Program-made: the position numbers and the translations under genes
The notes under the pieces: generated by a model
What the model was told of the DNA's origin: nothing
Database searches by the model: none
Seen by the model: only the letters and a program-made list of their open reading frames with translations
Source of the DNA: Rhodohalobacter sulfatireducens
GTDB taxonomy: Bacteria > Bacteroidota > Rhodothermia > Balneolales > Balneolaceae
DNA: 64,000 bases
Reading direction: 5' to 3'
Assembly (NCBI RefSeq): GCF_022012475.1
Contig: NZ_JAKLWS010000002.1
Span: forward strand, 124,001 to 188,000
In this document: positions 3,429 through 32,904 of the stretch, piece by piece
How the letters are laid out: each line of letters begins with the position of its first letter
Position numbering within the stretch: position 1 is the first letter of the stretch

Positions 3429-6362
3429 ATGGGAAAACAAATACATTCCTTACTGCTAAGGTGGGGGCTCAGTTCGGTTTTGTTGGTGCTGTTGTTAGCA
3501 ACGACAACTCATGCTCAGTTAGTTACTGTTACGGGAACTGTGACATCAACGCAAACAGGTGAAACCTTACCAGGTGTAAACGTTTCTGTTGTAGGGCAAA
3601 CGCAAGGGACTGTGACAAATTTGGATGGAGTTTATGAAATAGAAGTGGAAGGAGATGCAACACTTCGTTTTTCGTACATCGGATTTGTAACACAGAATAT
3701 ACCGGTAAATGACAGAGAAGTCATTGACGTGGTACTCGCTGAAAGTGTTCAGAATTTAGATGAACTGGTTGTAATGGGTTACACAGTTGTGTCCAAACGT
3801 GAAGTATCCAGCTCAGTCGTACAGGTTAGCGAAGCAGACCTCCAGGCAATTACAACTAACGATCCAACCGAAGCGTTAGAAGGTCAGATGGCTGGTGTAG
3901 TTGTTGAGCAATCCAGTGGACGGCCCGGTCAAAATTCAAATATTTTGATTCGAGGTACCGGTTCGATATCTGCAAGTTCTTCTCCTTTATATGTTATTGA
4001 CGGAGTTATTGCAGGTGCCGGTGAAAGAGATGCTGTAGCTCCTACAGATATTGAATCGATCAGTGTATTGAAAGATGCAGCCGCAACTGCTCTTTACGGT
4101 TCACGAGCATCGAATGGTGTAGTGGTTATTACAACAAAGAAAGGTCGTGCCGGTGATACTCGGATAACACTTCGTTCTTCCCGAGGATATAGTACAACTC
4201 TTGAAGGAAATGAAGAATGGATGAATTCGCAGGAATTGTACGATTTTCACCAAAATATGGTTAGTGCCGAGGTTGGTCCTTTCTATAATCGTTCTGAGGT
4301 TACTCAATACAATACCAACTGGCGGGATGTAGGATTTGATACAGGAATCACCCAAATGTACGATGCATCCGTTTCGGGTGGTGATGAATCGACTACATTT
4401 TTTATATCCGGTAATTTTTTCGAGGAAGAAGGAACAAACATCGGAACGAATTATGAAAGAATTTCAGGTCGTGTGAATGTAACACACAACTTTAATGAAG
4501 ATCTACGGGTGGATGCACGAGTGGCCGGTAATTACGGTGTGCGCGATAATGTTGTGACAGGTAATCCTTATACCATCTTAACATTTTCACGTAGAGCTCT
4601 TCCTTGGGATACTCCGTATAATGAAGATGGAACCGTACGAACAGGTACTGAATCGGACTGGTATTCGCGGGATTCAGAAAATCCACTTCATGGAATGCAG
4701 TGGAATACTGATATCGACAAAGTTTCATTTTATTCAGCTGATCTACGTCTCGAATATAATCTTACGAATTGGGCCAGCATAAGTAGTTCGAATCGTTACT
4801 CTCAACGAGATGGGCGCCAGGAGATCTTTCTTGATGCTCGATCAGCAGCCGGTGGTGGCCGAAATGGTTCTGTTGAAAACGAAACCGATCGGTCTACATC
4901 AGTTCTTACATCCAACTTATTGAGTATGAACAAAGGTTGGGCAAACAGTTCATTGAGTGGATTGGTTGGTTTTGAGTATCAGGAAAACCGATTTGAATTC
5001 ACCAATTTTCTGGGTGGCGGGTTGGCGCCGGGCTTAACCATTGCCGACGCTGCTGCAGTACCTTTTGATGTAGGCGGAGACATTGGCGAAAGTGCTTTTC
5101 AATCCTATTTAGCTCAGGCTGAGTATGAGTATATGGAAAAATATATTGCCACGGTATCATTCCGCAGAGACGGATCTTCGCGATTCGGTTCTGAAAATAG
5201 GTATGGTAATTTCTATTCTGTAGGTGCTTCTTGGGTACTTAGCCGGGAAGAATTTCTTGCTGATATAGATGCAATCGATCAATTAGCACTTCGTGCCAGT
5301 TATGGTACAACGGGGAATGCAAGTATTGGTAATTACGAGGCCCAGGGTCTATACTCGTTTACGAGTAATTACATCGGTACTCCGGCAAGTTTTCCATCGC
5401 GTGTTCCCAATTCAAACCTTACATGGGAGGTTGCGAAAACCTATAACCTTGGAGTTGATGTGGCTCTTTATAACAGGGTAAACATGTCTATTGATGTTTA
5501 TCAGCGAACCAATGAAGATCTTCTCCAGAATGTAACACTACCAGGAACCAGCGGTATCGACGACCGGATTTTAAATGTTGGTTCTGTTGAAAACAAAGGG
5601 ATCGAGTTAGCTATCAATACACAAAATATCCAGAGTAGAGATTTCAGCTGGACAACTTCGTTTACACTTTCAGCCAACAAAAACAGGGTAAAAGAACTTT
5701 ATGACGGTCAGCCAATTGATAACGGCGATTTCCGAATTGAAGAAGGTTTTGATATAAATACCTTTTATCTGAGAAAATGGTATGGAGTTAATTCGCAAAC
5801 AGGGGCTCCTCAGTGGGTCAATGCCGATGGATCGATTACAGAGGATTATGGTGCCGCAGCTCCGCAGCTGGCGAGTGCTACAACTCCTGATTTCCGTGGT
5901 GGACTCCGTAACAGATTCCAGTACAAAAACTTTAGTTTGGACACCTTCTTTACATACGTGTCTGGATCCAAAGGATATTATGATACAGGTATAGATTTTG
6001 GGGCTTACCTTACCACGAACTACCGTAAGTTGAGACCGGGTGAAAGTTACTGGCAACAACCAGGTGACGAATCTCACTTCCCTGCAAATGTTGTAGGTGG
6101 AAATAACAGTGGTCACCTTGAATCATCGCTCTTCATTTATGATCGATCTTATATTCGATTAAGGAGTGCACGATTAAGCTACACCTTGCCTCAGGATCTC
6201 TCATTTATGAATGCTGTAGGTTTACGCAATGCACTTCTATATGTGAATGGTGAGAACCTTGTGACATTTACTGACTGGCCGGGAAGAGATCCAGCAGCTT
6301 CGGACGACAGTTCGTATCCACTTGCCCGTACCTTCCTATTCGGAATTGAACTCGGCTTTTAA
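3429..6362 (+). CDS. SusC/RagA-family TonB-linked outer membrane transporter (first pair)
   Basis: An outer membrane TonB-dependent importer of 977 residues. A signal peptide (about 1-29, ending THAQ) is followed by a carboxypeptidase-regulatory-like domain (about 33-115, with ETLPGVNVSV and FSYIGF), then the plug domain with LYVIDGV and GSRASNGVVVITTKKG (about 185-245), then a long barrel ending in Phe, as outer membrane barrels do. The SusD partner starts 35 bases downstream. No anti-sigma interaction domain is evident at the N terminus, so control through an ECF sigma/FecR pair is unlikely. The glycan is unknown; the GH109-like run downstream on the same strand is the natural place to look for its user. 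Confidence 0.95.
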   Translation: MGKQIHSLLLRWGLSSVLLVLLLATTTHAQLVTVTGTVTSTQTGETLPGVNVSVVGQTQGTVTNLDGVYEIEVEGDATLRFSYIGFVTQNIPVNDREVIDVVLAESVQNLDELVVMGYTVVSKREVSSSVVQVSEADLQAITTNDPTEALEGQMAGVVVEQSSGRPGQNSNILIRGTGSISASSSPLYVIDGVIAGAGERDAVAPTDIESISVLKDAAATALYGSRASNGVVVITTKKGRAGDTRITLRSSRGYSTTLEGNEEWMNSQELYDFHQNMVSAEVGPFYNRSEVTQYNTNWRDVGFDTGITQMYDASVSGGDESTTFFISGNFFEEEGTNIGTNYERISGRVNVTHNFNEDLRVDARVAGNYGVRDNVVTGNPYTILTFSRRALPWDTPYNEDGTVRTGTESDWYSRDSENPLHGMQWNTDIDKVSFYSADLRLEYNLTNWASISSSNRYSQRDGRQEIFLDARSAAGGGRNGSVENETDRSTSVLTSNLLSMNKGWANSSLSGLVGFEYQENRFEFTNFLGGGLAPGLTIADAAAVPFDVGGDIGESAFQSYLAQAEYEYMEKYIATVSFRRDGSSRFGSENRYGNFYSVGASWVLSREEFLADIDAIDQLALRASYGTTGNASIGNYEAQGLYSFTSNYIGTPASFPSRVPNSNLTWEVAKTYNLGVDVALYNRVNMSIDVYQRTNEDLLQNVTLPGTSGIDDRILNVGSVENKGIELAINTQNIQSRDFSWTTSFTLSANKNRVKELYDGQPIDNGDFRIEEGFDINTFYLRKWYGVNSQTGAPQWVNADGSITEDYGAAAPQLASATTPDFRGGLRNRFQYKNFSLDTFFTYVSGSKGYYDTGIDFGAYLTTNYRKLRPGESYWQQPGDESHFPANVVGGNNSGHLESSLFIYDRSYIRLRSARLSYTLPQDLSFMNAVGLRNALLYVNGENLVTFTDWPGRDPAASDDSSYPLARTFLFGIELGF

Positions 6363-6397: not shown

Positions 6398-7966
6398 ATG
6401 AGACAATTAAAAATAGTTTTAACAACAGCAGTGCTGTCATTGATACTGTTCTTCAGTAGCTGTGATATTGCGCGCTCTCCGTATGACGGTATCCCGGTAG
6501 ATCAGGCGCTTAGTTCTGTGCAGGGAATCGAAGATGTAACCAGGGGTAACTACGCTTATCTCAAAGATGAGACACGTAGTACGTATGGCCTGGTAATGAT
6601 GCTTTATCAGCCGGGTGATTACCGATCAGACGATCTGATGATCAGCGGTACCACATCCAACAGAATGATGCTTACTTACAATTATCTGCATAATCCCAAC
6701 ATGCCGAATACATCTAACATGTGGAGGCGGGGATACAGGTTAATTTATAATGCAAACACTGTAATTGAAGCAATTACTCCGGGCGAATCACCTGATTTGG
6801 ATCAGTTGCGAGGTGAAAATCAATTTCTTCGTTCATTGATGACACTGCATCTTGTTACAGCTTTTGGCCGGCCCTATAGCCACGGTCGAGATAATCTCGG
6901 AGTTCCTATTATGCGAGAGCCTGATCTTGAAGCTCAGCCAGCTCGGGCTACTGTGGGTGAAGTGTACGATTTCCTGGTTCAAGATTTGACAGAAGCGGCA
7001 AACCTTATGGGTTCTGAAAAATCAAGTGCTTTCGGTACAAAAGAAGCTGCTTTGGCTCTCTTATCTCGAGTATATCTTTATATGGAAGAGAACCAGAATG
7101 CCATTTCAGCTGCCGACCAGGTTATCAGTTCAGGCCGATATGAATTGGTGGATGGAGAAACACTACCAAATTACTTCACATTCAGCCCGGTAGCTGATGC
7201 AAGATCTGAATCCATTTTTGCCATCCGTCACGTTATGCCGGCGGATGATCATGGTAGAAGTCACGGTGTTGGATCAATGATCTATCGATCACCATCCGGC
7301 TCTGGTTGGGGCGAAAACTATGCCTCTAAAACATATCGCGATCTGATCAACAAGTGGCCATCTGATGTTCGACGCCAATTCGTTGAACCACAATATCAAA
7401 TTGTAAACGGTGATACACTAAGACGAGATGACGGATTATACCAATATGTTGAAAGAAATGGTTTTCCACGTTTTTATGTCACAAAGTTCTGTTGCCAGGA
7501 AGGCACGGAGATGGGTAACTCACCCGAGTTAATTCGATATTCGGAAGTCTACTTAAATAAAGCAGAAGCATTGGCAAAACTGGGACAAGATCAGGCTGCA
7601 CTCGATATTGTAAATATGTTGCGGGAGCGAGCTCAAATCCCTCAAGCCGGTATGTACTCATTGAGTAATTTGGGAGATCATGACACTGTTCTAGATGTTG
7701 TTCTGGAGGAGCGACGCTTAGAACTCTTTATGGAAGGTCATCGGGCCCACGATCTATTTCGTAATAAACGGGATCTATTCAGAGATTATCCCGGAACTCA
7801 CTTGGCTCCCGGAAACCCCGGTGTTGATTTGAGCCGAGGACCGGTTGATCCATATACAGGTATACAAGGTATACAGCATATTCCGTGGGATCATAACAGA
7901 ATTATATTCCAAATTCCTGAAGAGGAGATTGCGCTGAATCCGAACTTGCAGCAAAATCCAATTTAA
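6398..7966 (+). CDS. SusD/RagB-family glycan-binding lipoprotein (first pair)
   Basis: A surface lipoprotein of 522 residues that caps the SusC barrel and captures glycan. The lipobox FFSSC gives the lipidated Cys22. The N-terminal half holds the SusD tetratricopeptide-like helices (FLRSLMTLHLVTAFGRPY near 147-164 is typical), and the C-terminal RagB part holds YLNKAEALAKLG and LEERRLELFMEGHRAHDL, both strongly conserved in the family. It is the last gene of the SusCD transcript, as a strong terminator follows 16 bases later. Confidence 0.95.
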   Translation: MRQLKIVLTTAVLSLILFFSSCDIARSPYDGIPVDQALSSVQGIEDVTRGNYAYLKDETRSTYGLVMMLYQPGDYRSDDLMISGTTSNRMMLTYNYLHNPNMPNTSNMWRRGYRLIYNANTVIEAITPGESPDLDQLRGENQFLRSLMTLHLVTAFGRPYSHGRDNLGVPIMREPDLEAQPARATVGEVYDFLVQDLTEAANLMGSEKSSAFGTKEAALALLSRVYLYMEENQNAISAADQVISSGRYELVDGETLPNYFTFSPVADARSESIFAIRHVMPADDHGRSHGVGSMIYRSPSGSGWGENYASKTYRDLINKWPSDVRRQFVEPQYQIVNGDTLRRDDGLYQYVERNGFPRFYVTKFCCQEGTEMGNSPELIRYSEVYLNKAEALAKLGQDQAALDIVNMLRERAQIPQAGMYSLSNLGDHDTVLDVVLEERRLELFMEGHRAHDLFRNKRDLFRDYPGTHLAPGNPGVDLSRGPVDPYTGIQGIQHIPWDHNRIIFQIPEEEIALNPNLQQNPI

Positions 7967-7981: not shown

Positions 7982-8017
7982 AAAAGGAGCATTCCAATAA
8001 AAGGGATGCTCCTTTTT
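7982..8017 (+). terminator. Rho-independent terminator after susCD (first pair)
   Basis: A 14-pair stem (7982-7995 with 8003-8016, one T-G wobble, core AAAAGGAGCAT/ATGCTCCTTTT) closes a 7-base loop and runs into TTTTT. It separates the SusCD transcript from the orphan lipoprotein gene. Confidence 0.9.
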
Positions 8018-8168
8018 GTTTATCAAACAGTTTTTAAAAAATACAATTACTTTATTTGATCTTTACAGAAAGATCAGGTATCGCCAAGAAATAAGAGAGC
8101 TTTCTATTATGAATATCACCGAAATAGATATTCTCAGGGTTAATAATCTCACCAAAAAAAGCACGAAT

Positions 8169-9185: not shown

Positions 9186-9232
9186 AGCCATCCGGGTTTT
9201 GTGATATGGTAGAATCCGGATGGCTAATTTTT
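9186..9232 (+). terminator. Terminator-like hairpin ending the short transcript
   Basis: A perfect 10-pair stem (AGCCATCCGG at 9186-9195 with CCGGATGGCT at 9216-9225), a 20-base loop, then AATTTTT. The loop is long for an ideal terminator, but stem and T-run agree on the plus strand. Confidence 0.6.
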
Positions 9233-9342: not shown

Positions 9343-10692
9343 ATGAGCAATCAATTCGACAGAAAGGATTTTCTGAAAATTTCATCGGCAGCAATGGGAG
9401 GTGCAATGCTAACTTCTATGGGTTTATCACAAATCTCCTTTGCAAAGAAAAAAAATGTTTTGAACCAGGATAGTCCCGTTCGTCTTGGCTTTGTTGGTAT
9501 AGGCGGACGCGGCCAATGGCATCTAAGTTCGGCTCTTGGAATTCCGGGTGTCCAGGTTCCGGCGATATGCGAAATCAAACCAGAGCGGTTATATACAGCT
9601 AAGCGATGGGTTGAAGAATCCGGTCAGCCAACTCCAACATTGTATGGAGCGGATGAAGATGAAACTGCTTTCAAGAAAATGTGCGAGGAAGAAGATCTTG
9701 ATGCTATTATCTGCTCAACATCATGGAAATGGCACGCCCCGATTGTTCTTGCGGCTATGAATAACGATAAACATGCCGCCTGTGAAGTGCCGCTGATGCT
9801 TACTCTGGATGAAGCCTGGGAAATTATTGAAACCCACGAAAGTACGGGTAATTGGGCGAGTACTGTATTAGGTGGCTTTCCGGATGTAACTCTTTTAAAT
9901 ATGATTCGCCGGGGATTGCTGGGTGATATGATTCATGCTGAAGGTGGTTACATTCACGATCTTCGATTTGTGAAGCATGCCCCGGATGAGGAACCATGGA
10001 GATTATGGCATTCCATCTACAGAAACGGGAATCTCTATCCGGACCATCCGATGAGAACGATCATGCCGGCCCTGGATATTAATCATGGTGATCGAATTGA
10101 CTACCTGATCTCTATGAGTTCTAAAGCTGTAATGTTGAATGACTATGCGGCCGATCAATATGGAAAAGAACATCCATATGCTACTAAAGAGATGAAGCAG
10201 GGAGATTACAATGCTTCACTGATTCGAACGGTTGACGGCAAGATGATCACCCTGAATTTCGATACGAATACTCCACACCCGAGAGGAAACTATCGCTTCC
10301 AGGGTACCAAAGGCGTCTACCTGAGAGATCGTGGTACCAATCGAATTTATGTTGAAGGACAAAGTCCGGAATCACATGAATGGGAACCGGCTGAGAAATA
10401 CAGGGATGAGTATGAATCACCAATCCTGAAAAATTATGATCCACCGGAACGAGTCGTTGAAATTCGAGGCCACGGAGGCTCAAACCGACAGACTTCCATC
10501 AACTGGACAAACCTGGTTGAAGCGATCCGAAACGATACCTCACCATATATAGACACCTATGATTCCGTTACAAGTAGTGCCGTTTCAGCAGTCACGGAAC
10601 AGTCGATAGCAGAAGGTTGCCGTCCGGTAGATTTTCCTGATTTTACTCGTGGAAAATGGCAAAACAGAACACCAATTCTTGCAACAGCATAG
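9343..10692 (+). CDS. GH109-like NAD-binding glycosidase (Gfo/Idh/MocA fold), copy 1
   Basis: A protein of 449 residues with a Tat-like leader (DRKDFLK then a hydrophobic stretch; RK rather than RR) and a Rossmann NAD motif GIGGRG at 52-57. True Gfo/Idh/MocA dehydrogenases have a catalytic Lys in an EKP motif; here it is EVP at 148-150. The pattern instead follows GH109 alpha-N-acetylgalactosaminidases, which hydrolyse glycosides with bound NAD: GGYIHDLR at 201-208, RNGNLYPDHP at 227-236, DINHGDR, GHGG near 376 and a C-terminal PDFTRGKW. I infer a periplasmic NAD-dependent glycosidase, substrate unknown. First gene of an 11-kb run; the next gene starts 17 bases on. Alternative: an ordinary exported oxidoreductase. 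Confidence 0.7.
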   Translation: MSNQFDRKDFLKISSAAMGGAMLTSMGLSQISFAKKKNVLNQDSPVRLGFVGIGGRGQWHLSSALGIPGVQVPAICEIKPERLYTAKRWVEESGQPTPTLYGADEDETAFKKMCEEEDLDAIICSTSWKWHAPIVLAAMNNDKHAACEVPLMLTLDEAWEIIETHESTGNWASTVLGGFPDVTLLNMIRRGLLGDMIHAEGGYIHDLRFVKHAPDEEPWRLWHSIYRNGNLYPDHPMRTIMPALDINHGDRIDYLISMSSKAVMLNDYAADQYGKEHPYATKEMKQGDYNASLIRTVDGKMITLNFDTNTPHPRGNYRFQGTKGVYLRDRGTNRIYVEGQSPESHEWEPAEKYRDEYESPILKNYDPPERVVEIRGHGGSNRQTSINWTNLVEAIRNDTSPYIDTYDSVTSSAVSAVTEQSIAEGCRPVDFPDFTRGKWQNRTPILATA

Positions 10693-10709
10693 TTAAGGAG
10701 GATGATTAA

Positions 10710-11852
10710 ATGAGTAACAGAAGAAATTTTCTAAAAAAAACAGGATTGGCAGGATTAGGACTCACCGGTTTAGGGTTTCTTGGGTCAAGTTCAACCCAGG
10801 CTAAATCAACGAAACTGACCGAAGAACAGGTTACGGGTGATCTTAGGTTGCTGGATTGGGAACCCATACCACAGCTTGTTGTGGAAGAGACGATTATCAA
10901 AAAACCGAAATTCCCGGTTATTGATATCCATAACCATTTGCGAAACCTGGACAGAACCCAGGAGTATCTCGACGTAATGGATGAAGTAGGAGTTTGGAAA
11001 GTTGTGAGTTTGGATGGAAGATCTGAAGACGGCTTTTACAAAGAGCACCTGGAAGTCTCAAACAGTGTGGGCGAAGATCGATTCATCATATTCTACCGGG
11101 TAGATTACAGTAGAATTGATGAACCTAATTATGGTGAGGATGAAGCAGACAGGCTTGAGCAAGCAGTTGAAGCGGGACTTCGGGGAATTAAGGTGTCTAA
11201 ATCACTTGGATTACGCTACAGGGACGCGAGCGGAGAATTGATTCGAGTGGATGACGAACGTCTTGATCCTGTTTGGGCGAGGGCCGGTGAATTAGGTATT
11301 CCTGTTTTGATGCACATCTCAGATCCAAAAGCATTTTTCACCCCGATTGACCGGTACAACGAGCGTTACGATGAATTGGGTGCACATCCGGACTGGGGAT
11401 TTTCAGGGCCTGAATTTCCCGGGAAAGAAGAGCTGCTTCGGCAACGAAATCGTGTTTTTGAACGCCATCCGGATACAACATTCATAGCCACTCATATGGC
11501 AAACTTGCCGGAAGAGTTGGGCAGAGTATCCATGTGGTTAGAAAAATATCCGAATATGTATGTAGATATAGATGCCCGAATCAGTGAGTTGGGACGTCAG
11601 CCGTATACAGCCCGTAAGTTTATGATCAAACACCAGGACAGGGTGCTTTTTGGAACTGATACTGCTCCGAATGTTGAGGCTTACAGGGTTTATTATCGAT
11701 TCCTGGAAACGGATGACGAATATATCAATGCAGATCCAAGCCACCATCGACAAGGCCGCTGGAGAATTTACGGTTTATACCTTCCGGATGATGTGTTAGA
11801 AAAAATCTACAACAAAAATGCTCTAAAAATATTCGCAGAATTCAAAGGCTAA
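10710..11852 (+). CDS. Exported amidohydrolase (PF04909-type TIM-barrel metal hydrolase), copy 1
   Basis: A protein of 380 residues with a twin-arginine leader (NRRNFLKK at 3-10, then a glycine/leucine-rich stretch). The TIM-barrel amidohydrolase metal ligands are visible: HNH with His74 and His76, MHISDP with His202, THMAN with His262, and FGTD with Asp317. This superfamily includes sugar lactonases and decarboxylases of the 2-pyrone/fuconolactone type, so hydrolysis of a lactone or ester from the neighbouring sugar enzymes is possible; that is inference. It lies between two GH109-like copies with gaps of 17 and 39 bases, so co-transcription is likely. Confidence 0.8.
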   Translation: MSNRRNFLKKTGLAGLGLTGLGFLGSSSTQAKSTKLTEEQVTGDLRLLDWEPIPQLVVEETIIKKPKFPVIDIHNHLRNLDRTQEYLDVMDEVGVWKVVSLDGRSEDGFYKEHLEVSNSVGEDRFIIFYRVDYSRIDEPNYGEDEADRLEQAVEAGLRGIKVSKSLGLRYRDASGELIRVDDERLDPVWARAGELGIPVLMHISDPKAFFTPIDRYNERYDELGAHPDWGFSGPEFPGKEELLRQRNRVFERHPDTTFIATHMANLPEELGRVSMWLEKYPNMYVDIDARISELGRQPYTARKFMIKHQDRVLFGTDTAPNVEAYRVYYRFLETDDEYINADPSHHRQGRWRIYGLYLPDDVLEKIYNKNALKIFAEFKG

Positions 11853-11891
11853 GTCGATTTAAAAAATTCAATTAATAAATGGGATATTACT

Positions 11892-13241
11892 ATGAGTAAA
11901 AAATTAGACAGGAAAGGTTTTTTGAAAATGTCCACTGCCGGATTGAGTACATCTGTTCTGGCCGGGATGGCCTTATCCAAACCGGTTGTTGCAAAAAATA
12001 GAACAAATCAAGGGCGGCCAATTCGTCTTGGATTTGTTGGAATCGGCGGACGTGGAACGTGGCACCTGAGTGCTGCACTTGGAATTGAGGGAGTTGAAGT
12101 ACCCGCAATTTGTGAAATTCGAGCGGATCGATTGGAAAATGCAAAAAATATGGTTGAGGCGTCCGGAAGGCCTTCCCCAACTTTGTACGGGGAAGGCCCG
12201 ATGGGCGAAACAGACTTTGAACGGCTTTGTGCTGAAGAGGATCTGGATGCAGTGATTTGCTCTACCTCCTGGAAATGGCACGCCCCGATAGTCCTGGCCG
12301 CCATGAACAATGATAAGCATGCAGCCTGCGAAGTACCTCTGATGCTGACCCTTGACGAAGCCTGGAGAATTGTTGAGACATATGAGAAAACGGGAAAATG
12401 GGCGAGTACTGTTTTAGGTGGTTTCCCTGATGTTACCCTTTTGAATATGATTCGTCACGGAGTTTTTGGGGAAGTTCTGCATATTGAAGACGGATACGTA
12501 CATGATCTTCGATTTGTAAAAAATAATATAGAAAGAGAACCATGGAGACTCCAACATTCTATCGATCGAAACGGGAATTTGTATCCCGATCACCCCATGA
12601 GAACGATTATGCCGGCGATGGATATCAATCATGGCGACCGAATCGACTTTTTGGTTTCCATGAGCTCGAAAGCAGTGATGCTGAACCGGTATGCTGCTGA
12701 ACAATTTGGAACAGACCATCCCGATGCCACCCGTACAATGAATCAAGGAGATTATAACGCTTCCCTGATTCGAACGGTGAACGGAAAAATGATTACACTC
12801 AATTTCGATACAAATACACCTCACCCGAGAGAAAGTTTCCGGCTCCAGGGAACAAAAGGTGTTTATGAAGATGGAGCAGATGTTGAAACGATCTATCTCG
12901 AAGGGCCGAGCCCGGAATCTCACGAGTGGGAATCTGCTGAGCCCTATCTCGAAGAATACGAACATCCGATGCTCAAAAATTATAATCCTCCACCTCGTGT
13001 AGGTGGTGCTATTGAAGGACACGGCCGGCGAATGGATCAAACGCCTATTAACTGGCATAATCTGATTATGGCGATTACAGAAGGCACTCAGCCCTATATC
13101 GACACCTACGATTCTGTAACAAGCAGCGCCGTCTCTGCTGTTACTGAGGCATCTGTTGCAAACAATGGGCGACCTGTAGATTTCCCTGATTTTACGAAAG
13201 GAAAATGGAAAGAAAGGACTCCAATATTTATGGAGGCCTGA
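11892..13241 (+). CDS. GH109-like NAD-binding glycosidase, copy 2
   Basis: A close paralog of the copy at 9343, also 449 residues. It has the same DRKGFLK leader, the NAD motif GIGGRG near 51-56, EVP at 147-149 in place of the dehydrogenase EKP, and the GH109-like series GYVHDLRF, RNGNLYPDHPMRT, DINHGDR, an HTPHPRE-like segment, GHGRR and PDFTKGKW. Long blocks such as STSWKWHAPIVLAAMNNDKH are identical to copy 1, so the two arose by duplication within the cluster. They differ near 100-110 (an extra GPMG) and in the C-terminal third, which could change substrate choice. Probably periplasmic. Substrate unknown. Confidence 0.7.
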   Translation: MSKKLDRKGFLKMSTAGLSTSVLAGMALSKPVVAKNRTNQGRPIRLGFVGIGGRGTWHLSAALGIEGVEVPAICEIRADRLENAKNMVEASGRPSPTLYGEGPMGETDFERLCAEEDLDAVICSTSWKWHAPIVLAAMNNDKHAACEVPLMLTLDEAWRIVETYEKTGKWASTVLGGFPDVTLLNMIRHGVFGEVLHIEDGYVHDLRFVKNNIEREPWRLQHSIDRNGNLYPDHPMRTIMPAMDINHGDRIDFLVSMSSKAVMLNRYAAEQFGTDHPDATRTMNQGDYNASLIRTVNGKMITLNFDTNTPHPRESFRLQGTKGVYEDGADVETIYLEGPSPESHEWESAEPYLEEYEHPMLKNYNPPPRVGGAIEGHGRRMDQTPINWHNLIMAITEGTQPYIDTYDSVTSSAVSAVTEASVANNGRPVDFPDFTKGKWKERTPIFMEA

Positions 13242-13281
13242 TTAACGTAACCCTCAACAACTAAAATGATTAAAATAGTAG

Positions 13282-14733
13282 ATGAAAAGTAATAGAAGAG
13301 ATTTTTTAAAAACGGCCGGTTTAGGTTCTCTCGGAGTATTTGGAACCGGAATTTTGGCAGGTTGTACCACACAGGAAGAGGTTGAATCCAGGCTCAGCCA
13401 GGTGAAAGAACAGGCTTCGCGCCAATATACTCAACAATTTAATATGCATGGGTATGCAGCACCGGCTCTGGATGTTGTTAGAGTGGGCATGACCGGGGTT
13501 GGAAATCGCGGATCAGGTACGGTTCGCAGGCTTGCCAGTATTGAAGGAGTGGAGATTGTTGCCGTCAATGACCTTGAAGAGGACCGCGTAAATGAGGCGA
13601 TTGAATCGATCTCAGAAACCCACAGTCCAGAGGGCTATTACGACGGTGAGGATGACTGGAGACGAATGTGCGAACGGGATGATATTGATCTCATTGCAAT
13701 AGCGACACCCTGGCATCTGCATACCGATCAGGCTGTATATGCCATGGAAAATGGAAAACATGTTTATACCGAACTTCCGGCTGCTCAAACCATTGAAGAC
13801 TGCTGGCGATTGGTAGAAACGTCAGAACGAACACGACGACACTGTGTTCAAATGTCAGGATCCTGCCACTCGGGTGATGCAGCTTATGTATTGAATATGG
13901 TTCGAAATGGTGTTCTCGGCGAGATCGTCCACGGCGAAGGCGGGTACATCCACGATTTGATGAACCGTTACAATTTCTCCAAAACCATGTACCACAACCT
14001 GTGGCGACTGAAAGAGAATATTGATCGTCATGGAAACTTGTATCCGCAGCATGCATTGACTCCCATGGCTCAAATGATGGACCTGAATTACGGTGATCAG
14101 ATGAGTTACCTGGTGTCCATGCAATCAAATGATTTTAATATGGCTCAGCGTGCCAGGGAATTGGCTGAAGAAGATGAATTTTGGGAACCGTATGTAGGGC
14201 GTGATTATCGCGGAAATATGAATTCAACCCTAATCCGTACTCATAAAGGTCGAACCATACTGATTCAACACGACGTTACAACGCCTCGTCCCGGAATTCG
14301 ATTTAATTTAATCGTTGGATCTGTTGGAACATATCATGCTCGGCCCGGTCGTCTTGGATTTAGTTATGATGATGGTTGGATTCCCCAAGAGGAGTATGAA
14401 GCCCTGATGGAAGAATACACTCCCGAAATCGTAAGAAGATTTAATGAGATGCGAGAACAAGCCGTGGAAACAGGCCGCGCAGAACGCTCTTATGCAAGAG
14501 TCAATGCTACAGACTGGAGGTTAATCGACAGTTTAAGAAATGGCCTGCCGGTGGAAATGGATGTATATGATGCGGCTCTCACAAGCTCAGTAATTCCTTT
14601 AAGCGAATGGTCGGTTGCAAATAAATCCGCATCAATCGATGTACCCGATTTTACTGCCGGAGCATGGGAAACGAATGAGCGCGGAATGCGTGTGAACCTG
14701 GAATCAGGTGGCGGTACAACACGTATCCGATAG
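13282..14733 (+). CDS. GH109-like NAD-binding lipoprotein, copy 3
   Basis: A 483-residue protein with a twin-arginine leader (NRRDFLKT) and a lipobox LAGC giving Cys28, so it is probably a Tat-exported lipoprotein. GVGNRG at 72-77 binds NAD. The EKP position reads ELP (164-166), again without the catalytic Lys. GH109-like landmarks are GGYIHDL at 220-226, HGNLYPQH at 250-257, DLNYGDQ, QHDVTTPRPG and PDFTAGAW. It belongs to a second subgroup, shared with the copy at 16030 and only distantly related to copies 1 and 2. A long hairpin separates it from the amidohydrolase downstream. Substrate unknown. Confidence 0.68.
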   Translation: MKSNRRDFLKTAGLGSLGVFGTGILAGCTTQEEVESRLSQVKEQASRQYTQQFNMHGYAAPALDVVRVGMTGVGNRGSGTVRRLASIEGVEIVAVNDLEEDRVNEAIESISETHSPEGYYDGEDDWRRMCERDDIDLIAIATPWHLHTDQAVYAMENGKHVYTELPAAQTIEDCWRLVETSERTRRHCVQMSGSCHSGDAAYVLNMVRNGVLGEIVHGEGGYIHDLMNRYNFSKTMYHNLWRLKENIDRHGNLYPQHALTPMAQMMDLNYGDQMSYLVSMQSNDFNMAQRARELAEEDEFWEPYVGRDYRGNMNSTLIRTHKGRTILIQHDVTTPRPGIRFNLIVGSVGTYHARPGRLGFSYDDGWIPQEEYEALMEEYTPEIVRRFNEMREQAVETGRAERSYARVNATDWRLIDSLRNGLPVEMDVYDAALTSSVIPLSEWSVANKSASIDVPDFTAGAWETNERGMRVNLESGGGTTRIR

Positions 14734-14751
14734 GAAAATGACGTGTTCGAG

Positions 14752-14791
14752 GGCATCCATATTTTTTAGAAATAATGAAAATGTGGATGCC
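14752..14791 (+). terminator. Intercistronic hairpin, possible weak terminator or attenuator
   Basis: GGCATCCATATTTT (14752-14765) pairs with AAAATGTGGATGCC (14778-14791) over 14 positions with one wobble, around a 12-base loop, followed by TGTTTAATTT rather than a clean T-run. It may cut read-through or stabilise RNA inside the cluster. Confidence 0.5.
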
Positions 14792-14826
14792 TGTTTAATT
14801 TGAATAATATTTTTAAGGAGAAGGAT

Positions 14827-15996
14827 ATGAGCTATTCTAAATCAATACATTTGTCAACAATACTATTGCTAAGTATCACAGTACTGTTCATTCATAGTTG
14901 TTCACAAAATCAAAACCAGGATTCATACTACAGTCAAAGCGATGATTCAGGCCTGCTGGACACACTTTTATTGAAAGACTGGATGCCTGAATCGGTTCAT
15001 AATGTGCCAAAAACTGAAATAACAACAGCACAATACCCGATTATTGATATGCATGCCCATGATTATGCAAAGACAGAAGAAGAATTGGAAAAACGCATTG
15101 AAATAATGGATGCTACCGGTATCGAACGGTCTTTAGTACTAACCAAAAAAACTGGTGCTGCTTTTGAATCTGTTTATGCCTTGTATTCAAAATATCCGGA
15201 TAGGTTCGATGTATATTGTGGAATTGATTATACAGGGTATGAAGAGGAAGGTTGGAGCCAAAAAGCTGTCGAGCAAATTAGACGTGATGTCGAAGCTGGT
15301 TGCGAAGGTTTTGGAGAACTGCATGATAAAGGCGAGGGAATGACATCTGCTCCCGGAATGCACCCGGATGATCCAAGAATGGACTTAATATGGCAGACTG
15401 CTGCAGAAATGAATTTGCCGGTTAACCTTCATGTGGCCGAACCCATTTGGATGTACGAGCCTATGGATTCAACCAATGACGGGCTTACTCGGGCATATAC
15501 ATGGAGAGTTCAGAATCAGGATCAAATTGTTGGGCATGACGGGATGATTGAAATCTTAGACAGAACATTAGAGCGCCATCCCAATACAACATTTGTAGCA
15601 GCCCACCTTGCGAATACCAGTAACGATTTTTCTCTTTTAGCTAATCTTTTTGATAAGCATGAAAACTTTTATGCCGACATCTCGGCTCGATTTGCAGAGT
15701 TTTCTACGATTCCAAGGACAACAGCTGCTTTTTTTGAAAAATACCAGGATAGGATTGTGTACGGAACTGATTATGGTTTCGAGACTTTTCCGGATGATCC
15801 CTCAAAACCCTATGGCAATAACACCACTACGGAAGAAATGTTGAGGATGACATTCCGCGTTCTTGAAACTGCGGATGAACATTTCTATATGACAGATCTT
15901 GTTGGATACAAATGGCCAATGTACGGATTGGATTTAAGTGACGAGGCGTTGCAAAAAATCTATCGTGACAATGCCCTGAAGATATTGAGTAATTAA
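14827..15996 (+). CDS. Exported amidohydrolase lipoprotein, copy 2
   Basis: An ATG at 14827 is chosen over an in-frame TTG at 14800 because AAGGAGAAGG lies just before it and it gives a clean lipoprotein signal (lipobox FIHSC, Cys25). The 389-residue protein has the amidohydrolase ligands HAH (His76, His78), NLHVAEP, AAHLAN and YGTDYG. It is more divergent from copy 1 than expected for a recent duplicate: the middle carries its own GCEGFGELHDKGEG segment. Metal-dependent hydrolysis at the outer face of a membrane is expected; the substrate is not evident. It sits between two GH109-like lipoproteins and is followed by the next one after 33 bases. Confidence 0.8.
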   Translation: MSYSKSIHLSTILLLSITVLFIHSCSQNQNQDSYYSQSDDSGLLDTLLLKDWMPESVHNVPKTEITTAQYPIIDMHAHDYAKTEEELEKRIEIMDATGIERSLVLTKKTGAAFESVYALYSKYPDRFDVYCGIDYTGYEEEGWSQKAVEQIRRDVEAGCEGFGELHDKGEGMTSAPGMHPDDPRMDLIWQTAAEMNLPVNLHVAEPIWMYEPMDSTNDGLTRAYTWRVQNQDQIVGHDGMIEILDRTLERHPNTTFVAAHLANTSNDFSLLANLFDKHENFYADISARFAEFSTIPRTTAAFFEKYQDRIVYGTDYGFETFPDDPSKPYGNNTTTEEMLRMTFRVLETADEHFYMTDLVGYKWPMYGLDLSDEALQKIYRDNALKILSN

Positions 15997-16029
15997 CTGT
16001 ATGAACTGATTGCTTCATGGATAACATAA

Positions 16030-17460
16030 ATGAATAGCAGCAGAAGAGATTTTTTAAAAAAAGCAGGTTTAGGTTCTTTGGGTGTGGTAGGATACGGTCT
16101 TTTGGCAGGATGCAATTCACCGGAAGATGCTGAATCCACTCTTCAAAATATCCACGAGCAGGCAAACAGGCAGTATTCTCAGCAATTCAATATGCACGGA
16201 TTTGCAGCACCACCACTTGAACGAATTCGGGTAGGTGCTGTAGGCCTGGGAAGCCGTGGAACCGGAAATATGAGACGATTTGCGCGAATGGAAGGGGTAG
16301 AGATAAGAGCCCTTTGTGATTTGGTGCCAGAACACGCTGAACGAGCTGCCTCCTCCATCAGCGAATATCCGTATAAGCCGGAACTATACTCAGGAAGTGA
16401 AGACGCCTGGAAAGATCTTTGTGAACGCGATGATTTGGATTTGGTTATCATTGGAACTCCCTGGAGGCTGCATACACCCATTTCGATTTATGCCATGGAA
16501 AATGGAAAACATGCTGCCTCAGAAGTGCCAATATCAGTTACTGTGGAAGAAAGCTGGCAATTAATTGAAACTGCGGAGCGAACTCAGAAACATTGCATGA
16601 TGCTTTCGAACCCAAACTACGGCGATTTCCAGATGATGACTCTTGCAATGGCCAGGGAAGGATTTCTGGGCGAGATAATACATGGAGAAGGTGCATACAT
16701 CCATGACCTGATGCGCTCTCACCTTTTTACTACTGATGCCTATCACAATTTATGGCGGCTCAAAGAAAATGCCAGCCGGAACGGAAATCTGTACCCTACC
16801 CACGGCCTGGGTACGATCTGCCAGGTGATGGATATTAACAACGGTGACAAGATGGATTTTCTGGTATCCGTTTCGACGAAGGATTTTATGATGAGCGAAA
16901 CGGCCCAAGAGATGGCTGAGGAAAACCCCGTTTTTGAACCATTTGTTGATGCAGATTTTCGCGGAAATATGAACACTAGTATTATAAGAACTGAACAAGG
17001 CAGAACCATTGTGTTGCAACATGATGTAACATCACCGCGACCGGGTGTTCGATATGATTTGATCAGCGGTACCAAAGGAATTGCACAGGCACGCCCCGAA
17101 CGATTTGCATACGATCACGATGGATGGGTCCCGGATGAAGAATACAGGGAACTCCAAGAGCGATTCAGGCCGGAAATCAGCAAACGGGTTGGAGAAATAG
17201 CCAAAGAGATGGGAGGCCACGGGGGCATCGACACTCTAATGACCTGGCGGCTTGTGGATTGCCTCAGAAATGGGATTTCCCTGGATATGTCTATTTATGA
17301 TGGCGTTTTATGGAGTGTGATAGCCCCGCTGAGTGAATGGTCTGTAGCCCATAACGGCATGCCGATTAAAGTACCGGATTTCACAGCTGGTTCATGGCAG
17401 ACAAATGAACCGCTAATGGATATAGAGCTCGAACTAGGTGGCAACACTCAAATTTTATAG
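16030..17460 (+). CDS. GH109-like NAD-binding lipoprotein, copy 4
   Basis: A 476-residue paralog of the copy at 13282, with the same twin-arginine and lipobox leader (SRRDFLKK, LAGC, Cys28). GLGSRG at 72-77 binds NAD and EVP at 165-167 replaces EKP. GAYIHDL at 221-227 has Ala where the other copies have Gly, and NGNLYPTHG at 251-259 is exactly the form I remember from characterised GH109 enzymes. QHDVTSPRPG, GHGG and PDFTAGSW follow. Overall this is the copy whose histidine motif looks closest to classical GH109. Substrate unknown, and alpha-N-acetylgalactosaminidase activity is only one option. Confidence 0.7.
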   Translation: MNSSRRDFLKKAGLGSLGVVGYGLLAGCNSPEDAESTLQNIHEQANRQYSQQFNMHGFAAPPLERIRVGAVGLGSRGTGNMRRFARMEGVEIRALCDLVPEHAERAASSISEYPYKPELYSGSEDAWKDLCERDDLDLVIIGTPWRLHTPISIYAMENGKHAASEVPISVTVEESWQLIETAERTQKHCMMLSNPNYGDFQMMTLAMAREGFLGEIIHGEGAYIHDLMRSHLFTTDAYHNLWRLKENASRNGNLYPTHGLGTICQVMDINNGDKMDFLVSVSTKDFMMSETAQEMAEENPVFEPFVDADFRGNMNTSIIRTEQGRTIVLQHDVTSPRPGVRYDLISGTKGIAQARPERFAYDHDGWVPDEEYRELQERFRPEISKRVGEIAKEMGGHGGIDTLMTWRLVDCLRNGISLDMSIYDGVLWSVIAPLSEWSVAHNGMPIKVPDFTAGSWQTNEPLMDIELELGGNTQIL

Positions 17461-17487
17461 ATCTTAAATCTTATGGTTGGAATAAAG

Positions 17488-18666
17488 ATGAATTACAATA
17501 CGATGATGTACAATAAATCTCATTTTATTTTTGCGCCAATATTCTTGTTGGCTTTAGGAATCTTTTCCGGATGTGTTGAAAAAGGTGTGCAGGATGAAGT
17601 GCAATATTACACCCAAGAGGATTACGATTTAGTGAATAAATTCAATTCTCATGTTCACCTCTATACACCAGACAACACCTATATTAATAAAGCGGTTGAC
17701 GATAATTTTAAATTACTCTCTTTTCTTTCATCATCACCGGGCACAACCGGCAGGATTTCAGTACCCGAACAGGAGGAAGTTGTGATGGATCAGATCGAGA
17801 ATTATCCTGAGAACCTGTTTTACGCAACAACTATTTTAGATCCCTACAGTTTTAATGAGCCTGACTGGGTGGAAAACACGATTGAACATCTGAGACAGTC
17901 GTTTGAGAATGGAGCGGTTGCAGTAAAAATCAGGAAAAGTATTGGGATGGAAGTCAGAAAGCCCAATGGTGAATTTGTTACAATCGACGATCCGAAGTTT
18001 GACCCGGTCATCGATTTCATAGCTGAAAATGATAAGACATTGATTGGTCACATTGGTGAACCTAAGAATTGCTGGCTTCCTCTGGATGAAATGACCGTTG
18101 GAGGGGATCGGCAGTATTACAGTGAAAATCCTCAGTATCACATGTATCTGCATCCTGAATATCTGTCGCATGAGGAGCATATAGAGAAAGTAGAAAATAT
18201 GCTGAGAAAACACCCTGATGTGCGATATGTTGGAGCCCACCTTGCCAGCCTGGAATACGATGTGGATGAACTTGCCAAAAGACTCGATATGTTTCCTAAT
18301 ATGGCCGTAGATATGGCTGAACGGATTTCACACTTTCAGTACCAGGCCGCAGACGACTGGGAGAAGGTTCGGAATTTTATGATCAAATATCAGGATCGGC
18401 TTATTTATGCAACGGACGATGGCATGTACGGGCCAAAACCACATTTTGGAGCCGAACTTACCGATGAATCGCAACGAACAGTTGATCAGATCAGGCAAGC
18501 TACAGAGGAAAACTACCGGCGCCACTGGAAATTTTTTACAGATGAAGGTGCTATGACAGCGCCAAAACTTCCTGAAAGAGAATTCAAAGCATTGAGGTTA
18601 CCCAAAGAAGTAGTTGATAAAATTTACATAAAAAATGCTGAAAAGTGGTTTCCCGATATTCTTTGA
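17488..18666 (+). CDS. Exported amidohydrolase lipoprotein, copy 3
   Basis: The start at 17488 is favoured over ATG 17473 because GGAATAAAG precedes it. It gives 392 residues with a lipobox FSGC (Cys29). Amidohydrolase ligands: HVH at 55-57, GHIGEP and GAHLAS for the later histidines, and YATDDG for the final Asp. The block NPQYHMYLHPEY between the third and fourth ligands is shared with the amidohydrolase at 31711, its nearest relative in the window, rather than with copies 1 and 2. A 74-base gap precedes the GMC oxidoreductase. Function in detail unknown. Confidence 0.8.
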   Translation: MNYNTMMYNKSHFIFAPIFLLALGIFSGCVEKGVQDEVQYYTQEDYDLVNKFNSHVHLYTPDNTYINKAVDDNFKLLSFLSSSPGTTGRISVPEQEEVVMDQIENYPENLFYATTILDPYSFNEPDWVENTIEHLRQSFENGAVAVKIRKSIGMEVRKPNGEFVTIDDPKFDPVIDFIAENDKTLIGHIGEPKNCWLPLDEMTVGGDRQYYSENPQYHMYLHPEYLSHEEHIEKVENMLRKHPDVRYVGAHLASLEYDVDELAKRLDMFPNMAVDMAERISHFQYQAADDWEKVRNFMIKYQDRLIYATDDGMYGPKPHFGAELTDESQRTVDQIRQATEENYRRHWKFFTDEGAMTAPKLPEREFKALRLPKEVVDKIYIKNAEKWFPDIL

Positions 18667-18740: not shown

Positions 18741-20456
18741 ATGGAATATATTGGCAAGTCTCAGGATGAACGAACGTACGATGCAATTGTAATTGGTTCA
18801 GGGATGAGTGGCGGTTACGCCGCTAAAGAGCTCTGTGATAACGGTGTAAATACCTTGGTGCTTGAAAGGGGTCGACCGGTTAAACATGGAGAGTATCCAA
18901 CCGCAACGAAAGATCCCTGGGAGATTGATAACGCGGGACGGCTGCCGCAGGAGATGCTTGAAAAAAATCCGATCATCGCCAAGTGCTATGCTTACGACAA
19001 AACCACCGAGCACTTTTTTGTGAAAGATGAGGAACAGCCGTACATCCAGGAAAAACCGTTCGACTGGATTCGAAGTTACCAGGAAGGTGGTAAATCCCTG
19101 GTGTGGGCTCGAGGCTGCCAGCGATGGAGTAAATACGATTTTGAAGCACCCGGCAGAGATGGATATGGAATCGAGTGGCCGATTACGTATGATGATTTAG
19201 CCCCCTGGTACTCAAAAGTTGAAAAGTTTGCCGGGTGGAGTGGAAATAAAGATGGGCTCGAACATTTTCCGGATGGTGAATTTTTACCTCCTTTTGAATT
19301 CAACTGTGTGGAAGAGCATATGAAGGAGAAGATCGAATCTGCCTTTAAAGATCGATATTTCATCCAGGGGCGTTGTGCACACCTTACAGAACTTAAAGAT
19401 GTACACAGGGAACAAGGGCGAGGACAGTGCATGGCAAGGAATCTGTGTCAGCGCGGTTGTCCATACGGAGCGTATTTCAGTTCCAACTCTACGACACTAC
19501 CCTGGGCAATGAAAACCGGGAACCTGACGATTCGTACACATTCAGTCGTGCATTCGATTATCTATGATAAAGACAAAAAGAAAGCGGTTGGGGTAAGAGT
19601 TGTTGATGCAAATACAAAGGAGATGTCGGAATATTATGCACGCATCATTTTTGTGAATGCAGCATGCCTTAACTCGAATATGATTTTACTGAACAGCAAA
19701 TCAGAGCGATTTCCAAACGGGCTTGGCAACGACAGCGGAGTTTTGGGCCACTACATTGGCTTCCATAATTACCGTGGCAGAATGAGCGGTACTATCGATG
19801 GATTTGAAGACAAGTATTACTACGGAAGAAGGCCAACCGGTCCGTTGATTCCACCCTTCAGAAATGTTTTTGAACAAGAAAGTGATGCGGATTTCCAGGG
19901 TCGATATCATATCTCTATTGGTGCGGGGCGCTCAGGCTGGACTCGTGGAATGAGGTCTGATAAGATCGGAACTGATCTCAAGAAAGAACTCCAGGAACCC
20001 GGTGGCTGGAGAGTTGGCGGACGAATGTCCGGCGAGGTGATTCCAAGGTACGAAAATCACATACGCCTCAGTGAAACAGAGACAGATGAATGGGGTTTCC
20101 CTCAGCTGGTCTTCTCTATCGATTATGGAGAAAATGATGTGAAAATGATGGAAGATTACCTCGAAAAGGGATTGGAAATCATGGAAGCAGTGGGTGTAAA
20201 AAATATTAGGACGAGTGATAACAATCAGAATCCTGGCCTGGATATCCACGAGATGGGAGGGGTTCGAATGGGTAAAGATCCAAAGACATCAATCCTGAAC
20301 AAATGGAACCAGGTTCATTCCTGCGAAAATGTATTTGTAACAGACGGTGCGTGTATGACAACTGTATCTACTCAAAATCCCTCGCTTACCTTTATGGCAA
20401 TTACAGCAAGAGCAGCAAATTATGCAGTAGAGGAGATGAGTAAGGGTAACTTGTAA
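18741..20456 (+). CDS. GMC-family FAD oxidoreductase
   Basis: A 571-residue flavoprotein of the glucose-methanol-choline family. The dinucleotide-binding motif GSGMSG is at 19-24 with the adenosine-binding Glu42 in VLERGR. A cysteine-rich insert (CMARNLCQRGCPYGAYF) is typical of the GMC dehydrogenases in Bacteroidota, and the C terminus has VTDGACMTT followed by STQNPSLTFMAITARAA, the conserved FAD/active-site region. It probably oxidises a sugar or sugar alcohol hydroxyl. No signal peptide is seen, unlike all genes before it, and no small gluconate-2-dehydrogenase subunit 3 partner is encoded next to it. It closes the 9-20 kb run. Confidence 0.85.
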   Translation: MEYIGKSQDERTYDAIVIGSGMSGGYAAKELCDNGVNTLVLERGRPVKHGEYPTATKDPWEIDNAGRLPQEMLEKNPIIAKCYAYDKTTEHFFVKDEEQPYIQEKPFDWIRSYQEGGKSLVWARGCQRWSKYDFEAPGRDGYGIEWPITYDDLAPWYSKVEKFAGWSGNKDGLEHFPDGEFLPPFEFNCVEEHMKEKIESAFKDRYFIQGRCAHLTELKDVHREQGRGQCMARNLCQRGCPYGAYFSSNSTTLPWAMKTGNLTIRTHSVVHSIIYDKDKKKAVGVRVVDANTKEMSEYYARIIFVNAACLNSNMILLNSKSERFPNGLGNDSGVLGHYIGFHNYRGRMSGTIDGFEDKYYYGRRPTGPLIPPFRNVFEQESDADFQGRYHISIGAGRSGWTRGMRSDKIGTDLKKELQEPGGWRVGGRMSGEVIPRYENHIRLSETETDEWGFPQLVFSIDYGENDVKMMEDYLEKGLEIMEAVGVKNIRTSDNNQNPGLDIHEMGGVRMGKDPKTSILNKWNQVHSCENVFVTDGACMTTVSTQNPSLTFMAITARAANYAVEEMSKGNL

Positions 20457-31664: not shown

Positions 31665-31710
31665 GATGTTGCCGTTTTTGACTTCGTTTCATTTCATGTA
31701 AAACTGGTGA

Positions 31711-32865: not shown

Positions 32866-32904
32866 TGGTCAATGGTTGGGTTAATAAGTACAAGACTGTA
32901 AAAC

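Follow-up and report, generated by a model that had tools for sequence, protein, structure and literature searches.

A conserved run of exported GH109-family and PF04909 amidohydrolase genes in Rhodohalobacter sulfatireducens and its possible part in amino-sugar utilisation

The window analysed here, a 64,000-nucleotide stretch of the 5.1-Mb genome of Rhodohalobacter sulfatireducens (G000 in our samples; positions 124001–188000 of contig NZ_JAKLWS010000002.1, hereafter C61), carries a run of plus-strand genes in which exported proteins of the GH109 family (G1–G4) alternate with exported amidohydrolases of the PF04909 family (A1–A3) in the order G1-A1-G2-G3-A2-G4-A3, followed by a gene for a GMC flavo-oxidoreductase (Table 1). 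We propose, with a probability of roughly 0.45, that this run is the exported half of an amino-sugar utilisation island, most likely for sugars of the alpha-N-acetylgalactosamine (alpha-GalNAc) type, wherein the GH109 proteins would release the sugar and the amidohydrolases would deacylate it. A preliminary description of this DNA had already recognised the seven genes, their order, and their span (9343–18666), all of which are confirmed by the list of open reading frames (ORFs) and the Pfam matches. The gaps that it gave as 17–93 bases are close to the measured ones, which from G1 to A3 are 17, 39, 40, 66, 33, and 12 nt by the listed starts, the fourth becoming 93 nt if A2, listed with a TTG start at 14800, begins at the in-frame ATG at 14827; the genes may be co-transcribed, and the GMC gene starts 74 nt after A3. 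It had assigned Tat-like or lipoprotein leaders to all seven products; judged by eye from the translations, A1, G3, and G4 have Tat-like RRxFLK leaders, G1 and G2 have the weaker R-K form, and a lipobox-like Cys is present in A2 and A3, as also in G3 and G4. It had overlooked the GMC gene as a member of the module and a 17-pair stem in the 511-nt gap upstream of G1; this stem is the sole feature noted in a promoter and terminator scan of which the overall counts fell below the means of shuffled sequence.

The pairing of the two families recurs well outside this genome, to which the preliminary description had allowed that it might be confined. In a sample of 58 related genomes, 19 of them with GH109, a PF04909 match lies no more than 3 kb from 39 of the 64 GH109 matches, as against a mean of 0.72 and a maximum of 8 in 2000 draws of random placement; the PF04909 rows of this count come only from the 19 GH109-bearing genomes, and two weak ones on contigs without GH109 (G016:C226:7398 and G019:C112:12078) are omitted. 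All 39 paired matches fall in nine of the 19 genomes. The full order SusCD-(G-A)n-GMC is found in the own genome and in G004, G008, G012, and G025 (the last with the pieces on separate contigs), with a SusC1 ortholog directly upstream of a G-A module in each of these four relatives, whereas G005, G016, and G019 have G and A genes with the GMC gene and no adjacent SusCD. Orthologs of the GMC gene (≥80% identity) occur in these eight of the 58 genomes and lie in the module every time, the next matches (≤72%) being located elsewhere; the GMC gene thus belongs to the module. The earlier suggestion that the first SusCD pair feeds the run gains support from the order kept in five of the eight genomes with a GMC ortholog. 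GH109-amidohydrolase adjacency outside this order is seen in G241, G245, and G316, and more loosely in G181, and the own genome has a further such pair at C61:214.7–217.4 kb.

Farther afield, five of 80 named GH109 loci (some of them short) match an amidohydrolase profile built from the own family, which may miss other PF04909 members; four of them have the match within 3 kb (L034, L035, L037, and L068, the last from Fodinibius sediminis of the Balneolaceae). In a phylum-wide sample of 296 genomes, where at most six amidohydrolase candidates were scored per genome so that counts are lower bounds, an amidohydrolase is found no more than 3 kb from 15 of the 108 GH109 matches. A generalisation of the pairing to all GH109 genes is rejected by these two counts (4/80 and 15/108). 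An AbiEii-type nucleotidyltransferase gene (L034:13484-14296) lies about 2 kb downstream of the A1-G1 pair of the KSB1 locus. No description of a repeated exported GH109-PF04909 pairing was found in the open-access literature searched; one cockroach paper names both GH109 and an amidohydrolase, in unrelated contexts in the part of its text available to us, and the accessible part of PMC12017989 describes a D-aminoacylase-type deacetylase of N-acetylglucosamine (GlcNAc) acid, which is of a different family from PF04909.

Table 1. Genes and other features of the window, with the run and its GMC gene first (coordinates are window positions)
Feature	Position	Strand	Basis
G1, exported protein of the GH109 family that retains the loop His (GHGG)	9343..10692	+	PF21252 1.9e-47; 2IXA 8.4e-62; alignment
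A1, Tat-type exported PF04909 amidohydrolase	10710..11852	+	PF04909 1.3e-28; AlphaFold pLDDT 79; closest chain 3IRS, Z 21.5
G2, GH109-family protein 71% identical to its paralog G1 and retaining the loop His (GHGR)	11892..13241	+	PF21252 1.2e-50; 2IXA 5.3e-62
G3, from the GH109-family clade that lacks the GGHGG loop; RSYARVNATDWR with Tyr404 takes its place, no loop His	13282..14733	+	PF21252 2.7e-35; 6T2B 4.1e-71
A2, lipoprotein-type exported PF04909 amidohydrolase	14800..15996	+	PF04909 4.1e-23
G4, GH109-family protein, GGHGG intact (His397)	16030..17460	+	6T2B 5.9e-96
A3, PF04909 amidohydrolase of lipoprotein type; shares its half of the tree with the AgaS-operon amidohydrolases	17473..18666	+	PF04909 7.9e-11; tree
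GMC FAD oxidoreductase, leaderless	18741..20456	+	PF00732/PF05199; fructose dehydrogenase large subunit 6.4e-31
SusC1, SusC-like TonB-dependent receptor	3429..6362	+	PF07715, PF13715
SusD1, SusD-like lipoprotein	6398..7966	+	PF07980, PF14322; kept together with SusC1 in relatives
Class II (PF01116) aldolase, part of upstream sugar operon	651..1658	+	
FGGY sugar kinase	1696..3195	+	PF00370/PF02782; XylB-like match under curated cut-off
Terminator-like 17-pair hairpin separating G1 from the SusCD side	9186..9225	+	consensus match only

All four G proteins match the GH109 C-terminal domain (PF21252 Glyco_hydro_109_C, E-values 2.7e-35 to 1.2e-50) together with PF01408, all over the curated cut-offs, and phmmer comparisons with solved structures align them over their full length with 2IXA and 6T2B (E-values 8e-50 to 6e-96). 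The possibility raised in the preliminary description that they might all fall among ordinary dehydrogenases is therefore rejected, since the NCBIfam glycoside 3-dehydrogenase models BT_2158 and BT_2159 match only their N-terminal part at 19–56 bits, far under the cut-offs of 750 and 650, and the GH109 structures match throughout; by sequence, G1–G4 are full-length GH109 relatives. In AmGH109A, catalysis involves His404, Tyr226, and His259 (PMC10755693, as far as its accessible text goes), and the title of a reference cited there places the catalytic acid-base of GH109 in the GGHGG loop; the GH109 proteins assayed in the available portions of PMC11992087 and PMC12269599 are N-acetylgalactosaminidases. 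When these residue numbers are mapped by counting along the 6T2B alignment (offset 25), they correspond to the His of GGHGG, the Tyr of YIH, and the His of YPTH, respectively. Equivalents of Tyr226 and His259 are invariant in the eight GH109 copies of the own genome (Y203 and H235 in G1), which make up all its PF21252 genes and lie without exception on C61, and they are kept in 169 and 170, respectively, of the 170 proteins of a larger alignment. The loop His is retained in G1, G2, and G4 and absent in G3. A GH109 tree of 169 rows (quick method, SH-aLRT support only, some long branches) places G1/G2 and G3/G4 in two separate parts, the first of which also holds L034 (KSB1), L037 (Cerina litoralis, Flavobacteriaceae), and L035/L036 (Candidatus Solibacter, Acidobacteriota), so the pairing with amidohydrolases exists in two parts of GH109.

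The preliminary description had taken the four as redox-type glycosidases, which proves too simple: they are not equivalent, because G3 lacks the GGHGG loop. At the column of the loop His, G3 has a Thr in the MAFFT alignment and an Arg in the HMMER pairing with 6T2B, and there is no His in the 18 residues before RSYARV or within that motif; going by its residues, G3 is a protein of the GH109 clade and not a GH109 enzyme. The rows without the loop His form one side of a single branch (support 99), comprising 17 rows, of which 16 are distinct (L027 is a cut copy of G3) and some near-identical (L149, L152). The clade is not decaying: the altered loop has its own conserved residues, Tyr404, Val407, and D411-W412-R413 in G3 numbering, in all 16 members, and the resulting pattern YxxVxxxDWR is found in 16/16 of them versus 0/152 proteins that have the loop His. 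The residue two positions ahead of the invariant Tyr is His in six members, Arg in nine (including G3), and Gly in one; an alternative loop His may thus be available to those six, and with a His so near the Tyr in them the clade is more safely said to have lost the loop than to have lost the histidine. An amidohydrolase lies within 3 kb of 15 of the 16 distinct His-less proteins, as against 27 of 91 His-bearing rows, a comparison that leaves aside 61 rows with too little flank. Given that the replacement of GGHGG is a single event on the tree, this link with the amidohydrolases is one evolutionary instance with many descendants and not many independent ones. The one His-less protein without such a neighbour (L148:9359-10798, from G019) is encoded near NagB-like and NagA-like genes.

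The amidohydrolases A1, A2, and A3 score 101.1, 83, and 42.7 bits against PF04909 (cut-off 26.4; E-values 7.9e-11 to 1.3e-28) and share a conserved HxH, H, H, D set, namely H74, H76, H202, H262, and D317 of A1, present in 45–47 of 47 rows with gaps in the rest, which we take from the known fold to be the metal ligands. The AlphaFold model of A1 (pLDDT 79.1, pTM 0.78; residues 1–49 poor) predicts a PF04909-type barrel closest to 3IRS (Z 21.5, root-mean-square deviation 3.0 Å over 240 residues), with the COG3618 protein 4DO7 also among the matches (Z 18.0). As decarboxylases, phosphotriesterases, and the COG3618 protein score within a few units, the fold does not name the reaction of A1, and we know of no activity for this PF04909 subfamily. 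Neither A1–A3 nor the AgaS-operon amidohydrolase discussed below has any NCBIfam match at E 0.001, whether to the NagA model TIGR00221 or to another, and all of these would accordingly be at most analogues of AgaA/NagA and not members of that family. Their tree, in which long branches are flagged, has two halves: one with A1, A2, the copy at C61:215 kb, and relatives from GH109-free neighbourhoods, and the other with A3, A4 (a fourth PF04909 protein of the window), and the AgaS-operon copies. At least 70 of the 296 genomes in the phylum sample have the family, in most cases with no GH109 in the vicinity, and the idea that it always accompanies GH109 is rejected, only 13 of 96 matches there lying within 3 kb of one. 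In G005, the A1 ortholog (C9:178199-179218) has two stops inside the match and may be broken.

The link to galactosamine catabolism comes from the wider neighbourhood of the run on C61. The stretch C61:99–144 kb begins with NagB-like and NagA-like genes and an amidohydrolase-EamA-aldolase-PfkB-KbaZ-like-AgaS operon, continues with GH109, EamA, NagB-like, PfkB, amidohydrolase, two GH109, FucI-like, and unclassified genes, and ends with the aldolase, FGGY kinase, SusCD, and seven-gene run of the window, so that as a whole, on gene content, it reads as an amino-sugar island. Its operon at C61:106330–112576 matches the AgaS family (3e-104), PfkB (2e-52), PF01116 (3e-85), and, through its KbaZ-like protein, GatZ/KbaZ (9.3e-32), placing the AgaS, PfkB, and aldolase genes about 21–27 kb upstream of G1; its amidohydrolase gene is at C61:106330–107379. 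In the own genome and most mapped relatives, such operons comprise an AgaS-family isomerase, PfkB kinases (or one PfkB with a KbaZ-like protein), a GatY-type aldolase, and, as the last enzyme gene, a leaderless PF04909 relative; G241 differs in having AgaS, KbaZ-like, sodium symporter, and amidohydrolase genes and no recognised aldolase in the mapped stretch. Where the own genome has its KbaZ-like gene (L001:16150-17364), the G005 operon has a PfkB kinase (L150:3264-4247) whose first ~25 residues closely resemble the KbaZ-like N-terminus, a possible gene swap or recombination.

We surveyed 20 genomes chosen for GH109 and amidohydrolase genes on the same contig within ~12 kb. AgaS (TIGR02815, E≤2.1e-78) is present in 18, with GH109 within 7 kb in 17 of these and an amidohydrolase of the family within 5 kb of AgaS in 17, although in G005 and G025 it is of a different type from the operon one. 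A NagA match better than 1e-40 occurs in only five of the 20 (G000, G004, G005, G016, and G019), which leaves 14 of the 18 AgaS genomes without one; in G005, which lacks the operon amidohydrolase, a NagA-like gene lies 1.3 kb from the AgaS operon. In Escherichia coli, agaA and nagA substitute for each other and agaS is required (PMC3668189, in the portion accessible to us). Taken together, the operon context, the distribution of NagA, and the E. coli data make a deacetylase role plausible for the operon amidohydrolase and a deacylase role possible for the exported ones. The preliminary description had the metal hydrolase opening or trimming a released sugar; this is not supported as worded, and what the gene neighbourhood suggests is more specific, namely catabolism of an amino sugar (galactosamine), possibly with deacylation.

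Under this amino-sugar proposal, SusCD1 would import an alpha-linked amino-sugar oligosaccharide, from which the exported G1, G2, and G4 with bound NAD would cleave terminal alpha-linked N-acyl-galactosamine-type sugars by the GH109 chemistry of C3 oxidation, elimination, hydration, and re-reduction. The exported metal amidohydrolases A1–A3 would act on the freed sugar or on the glycan and take off its N-acyl group, or else some other amide or ester group, EamA-type transporters would take the sugar into the cytosol, and breakdown there would follow the AgaS/PfkB/tagatose-bisphosphate aldolase route, with the leaderless amidohydrolase occupying the slot where an AgaA/NagA deacetylase is expected. 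G3 with its rebuilt loop might act on a different linkage or as a C3-dehydrogenase that stops at the ketone, and the GMC flavoenzyme might oxidise a sugar of the same pathway.

Several observations weigh against this proposal. Among solved structures, those closest to A1 belong to decarboxylases and to proteins with no assigned function, and its fold singles out no deacetylase; because A1 and A2 fall in the tree half separate from the AgaS-operon copies, the argument from the latter is weaker for them than for A3. A1-like genes are often GH109-free, 83 of the 96 amidohydrolase matches in the phylum sample lying more than 3 kb from any GH109 match. The 20 surveyed genomes were preselected for GH109-amidohydrolase closeness, so their AgaS linkage was not sampled blindly; AgaS exceeds the curated cut-off in none of them (348.9 versus 529.2 bits for the own copy), and in G036 it lies 21 kb from GH109 with no operon amidohydrolase. 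G000, G004, and G019 carry both NagA and the operon amidohydrolase, and hence any replacement is not exclusive; TIGR00221 was, moreover, the only deacetylase model searched, and PIG-L deacetylases of the region could perform the deacetylation. Finally, the FucI-like, FGGY, and aldolase genes beside SusCD1 suggest a second, non-amino sugar. The FucI-like gene (L002:10332-11714; C61:122.3-123.7 kb) is followed by the unclassified gene, the aldolase, and the kinase next to SusCD1, an order also found in G008; the only NCBIfam match of its product is the sulfoquinovose isomerase SftI at 76 bits against a cut-off of 700, and these genes, from the FucI-like one to the FGGY kinase, look like a route for an unknown sugar.

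A different fate of the released sugar is conceivable, though we hold it to be unlikely: GH109 would free the sugar, the GMC enzyme would make an aldonolactone of it, and the PF04909 proteins would open this as lactonases. The constant presence of the GMC ortholog inside the module, in all eight genomes bearing it, is in keeping with this route, as are the fructose and glucose dehydrogenases that are the closest solved relatives of the GMC protein by sequence and the match of A1 to 4DO7, COG3618 being a group that includes sugar lactonases. However, dihydroxybenzoate decarboxylases equal or outscore 4DO7, the GMC protein is leaderless and has no PF13618 small subunit beside it (none of the six PF13618 genes of the genome is on C61), and the AgaS operons with the amidohydrolase show no GMC gene in the mapped stretches, save in G015, where one is nearby on the other strand. 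Still less likely, in our estimate, is a variant of oxidative glycan breakdown of the BT2158/BT2159 type, in which 3-keto glycosides would be formed by the GMC enzyme or by G3, and the amidohydrolases would take as substrates the 3-keto products or those of the elimination. GMC-superfamily glycoside 3-oxidases do exist (PMC10646112, in its available portion), the GGHGG loop is absent from G3, and three 3-keto-disaccharide hydrolases are encoded in a SusCD locus ~20 kb downstream; yet there is no such hydrolase within the module, and the weak N-terminal matches of G1–G4 to the BT_2158 model stand far below its cut-off, in contrast to their GH109 C-terminal domain scores, which are far above theirs. 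That the PF04909 members instead decarboxylate or hydrate an acidic sugar freed by GH109 (e.g., a uronic acid or uronamide) is improbable: their nearest named solved relatives by profile and fold are indeed dihydroxybenzoate and carboxyvanillate decarboxylases, but these are distant (E 9e-6 or weaker by profile, ~15–22% identity by structure), and the AgaS-pathway context calls for no decarboxylase. Lastly, a region rich in paralog duplication that merely gathered two exported families without a joint function is very improbable in light of the kept GMC order and of the way the pairing recurs across several families and phyla and in two separate parts of the GH109 tree, even though most amidohydrolase matches are GH109-free and the GH109 genes of the genome are all on one contig.

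GH109, PF04909, the GMC family, and the aga route are themselves already known; what appears to be new is that exported members of the two families are paired repeatedly, that one GH109 clade has a rebuilt loop, and that a PF04909 gene occupies the AgaA position, the latter two of which we likewise did not find in the open-access literature searched. Since the pairing recurs in other bacteria and lies close to genes for galactosamine breakdown, the cluster probably represents a new form of amino-sugar catabolism, with one GH109 branch in which the usual catalytic loop is replaced. It is rather doubtful that two further propositions hold jointly: that the rebuilt-loop clade with its invariant Tyr now catalyses some other NAD-dependent reaction, working in tandem with an exported hydrolase of the PF04909 family, and that the PF04909 subfamily is a sugar N-deacylase replacing AgaA/NagA in many genomes of the phylum, with exported paralogs that act outside the cytosol to deacylate GalNAc-type sugars. 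Interest in GH109 enzymes stems from conversion of the blood-group A antigen and from mucin breakdown, and a natural subfamily with a replaced loop, retained almost always next to a metal hydrolase, would show how the fold of these redox glycosidases can be adapted. Should the PF04909 proteins prove to be deacetylases, a gap in galactosamine catabolism would be filled in NagA-less genomes and a large group annotated just as "amidohydrolase" would gain a function.

Elsewhere in the window, a 271-residue ORF between SusD1 and the hairpin (8016-8831) has no Pfam or NCBIfam match and no BLAST match at 1e-15 in the maps of the relatives. On the minus strand (30537-38497) lie A4, a CBM9 protein, a PIG-L protein, AP_endonuc_2 and Gfo/Idh proteins, and a nucleoside-symporter-like transporter; orthologs of A4 are also found near the G-A module in G005, G008, and G012. 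A second SusCD locus on the plus strand (38889-52402) encodes two Gfo/Idh proteins, three PF06439 3-keto-disaccharide hydrolases, a PIG-L deacetylase, an FGE-sulfatase-domain protein, and a sulfatase, and it resembles a 3-keto-type oxidative glycan locus, with its Gfo/Idh proteins far below the NCBIfam 3-dehydrogenase cut-offs.

Among known systems, the GH109 alpha-N-acetylgalactosaminidases (EmNagA 2IXA, AmGH109A 6T2B, BT4243) share with G1–G4 full-length homology, the Rossmann and GH109 C-terminal domains, the Tyr226 and His259 equivalents, and, in G1, G2, and G4, the loop His; unlike them, the four paralogs here alternate with PF04909 genes and are joined by a GMC gene, and the G3 clade has Y-x-x-V-x3-DWR in place of GGHGG. 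The 3-keto glycan breakdown systems of the BT2158 type likewise use NAD-dependent proteins of the Gfo/Idh/MocA superfamily, which in Bacteroides are exported and tied to glycan use, but the model scores here are far under the cut-off and the module is without a 3-keto-disaccharide hydrolase. With the PF04909 decarboxylases and COG3618 lactonases, the A1–A3 family has in common the fold and the conserved HxH...H...H...D set, and differs in its export or lipoprotein leaders and in an identity of ≤22% in the structural matches. The Bacteroides thetaiotaomicron polysaccharide utilisation locus BT4240-4250 (PMC11992087, for the part available) resembles the present island in combining SusCD, a GH109 alpha-GalNAcase, and GalNAc catabolism in one locus, though the main text of that paper never uses the word amidohydrolase. 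The aga/gam operons of E. coli and others, with their AgaS-family isomerase, PfkB kinases, GatY-type aldolase, and KbaZ-like protein, have the same core as the AgaS operons described here, which differ in the SusCD genes alongside in several genomes and in having, in place of a NagA-type gene, a PF04909 gene in the operon.

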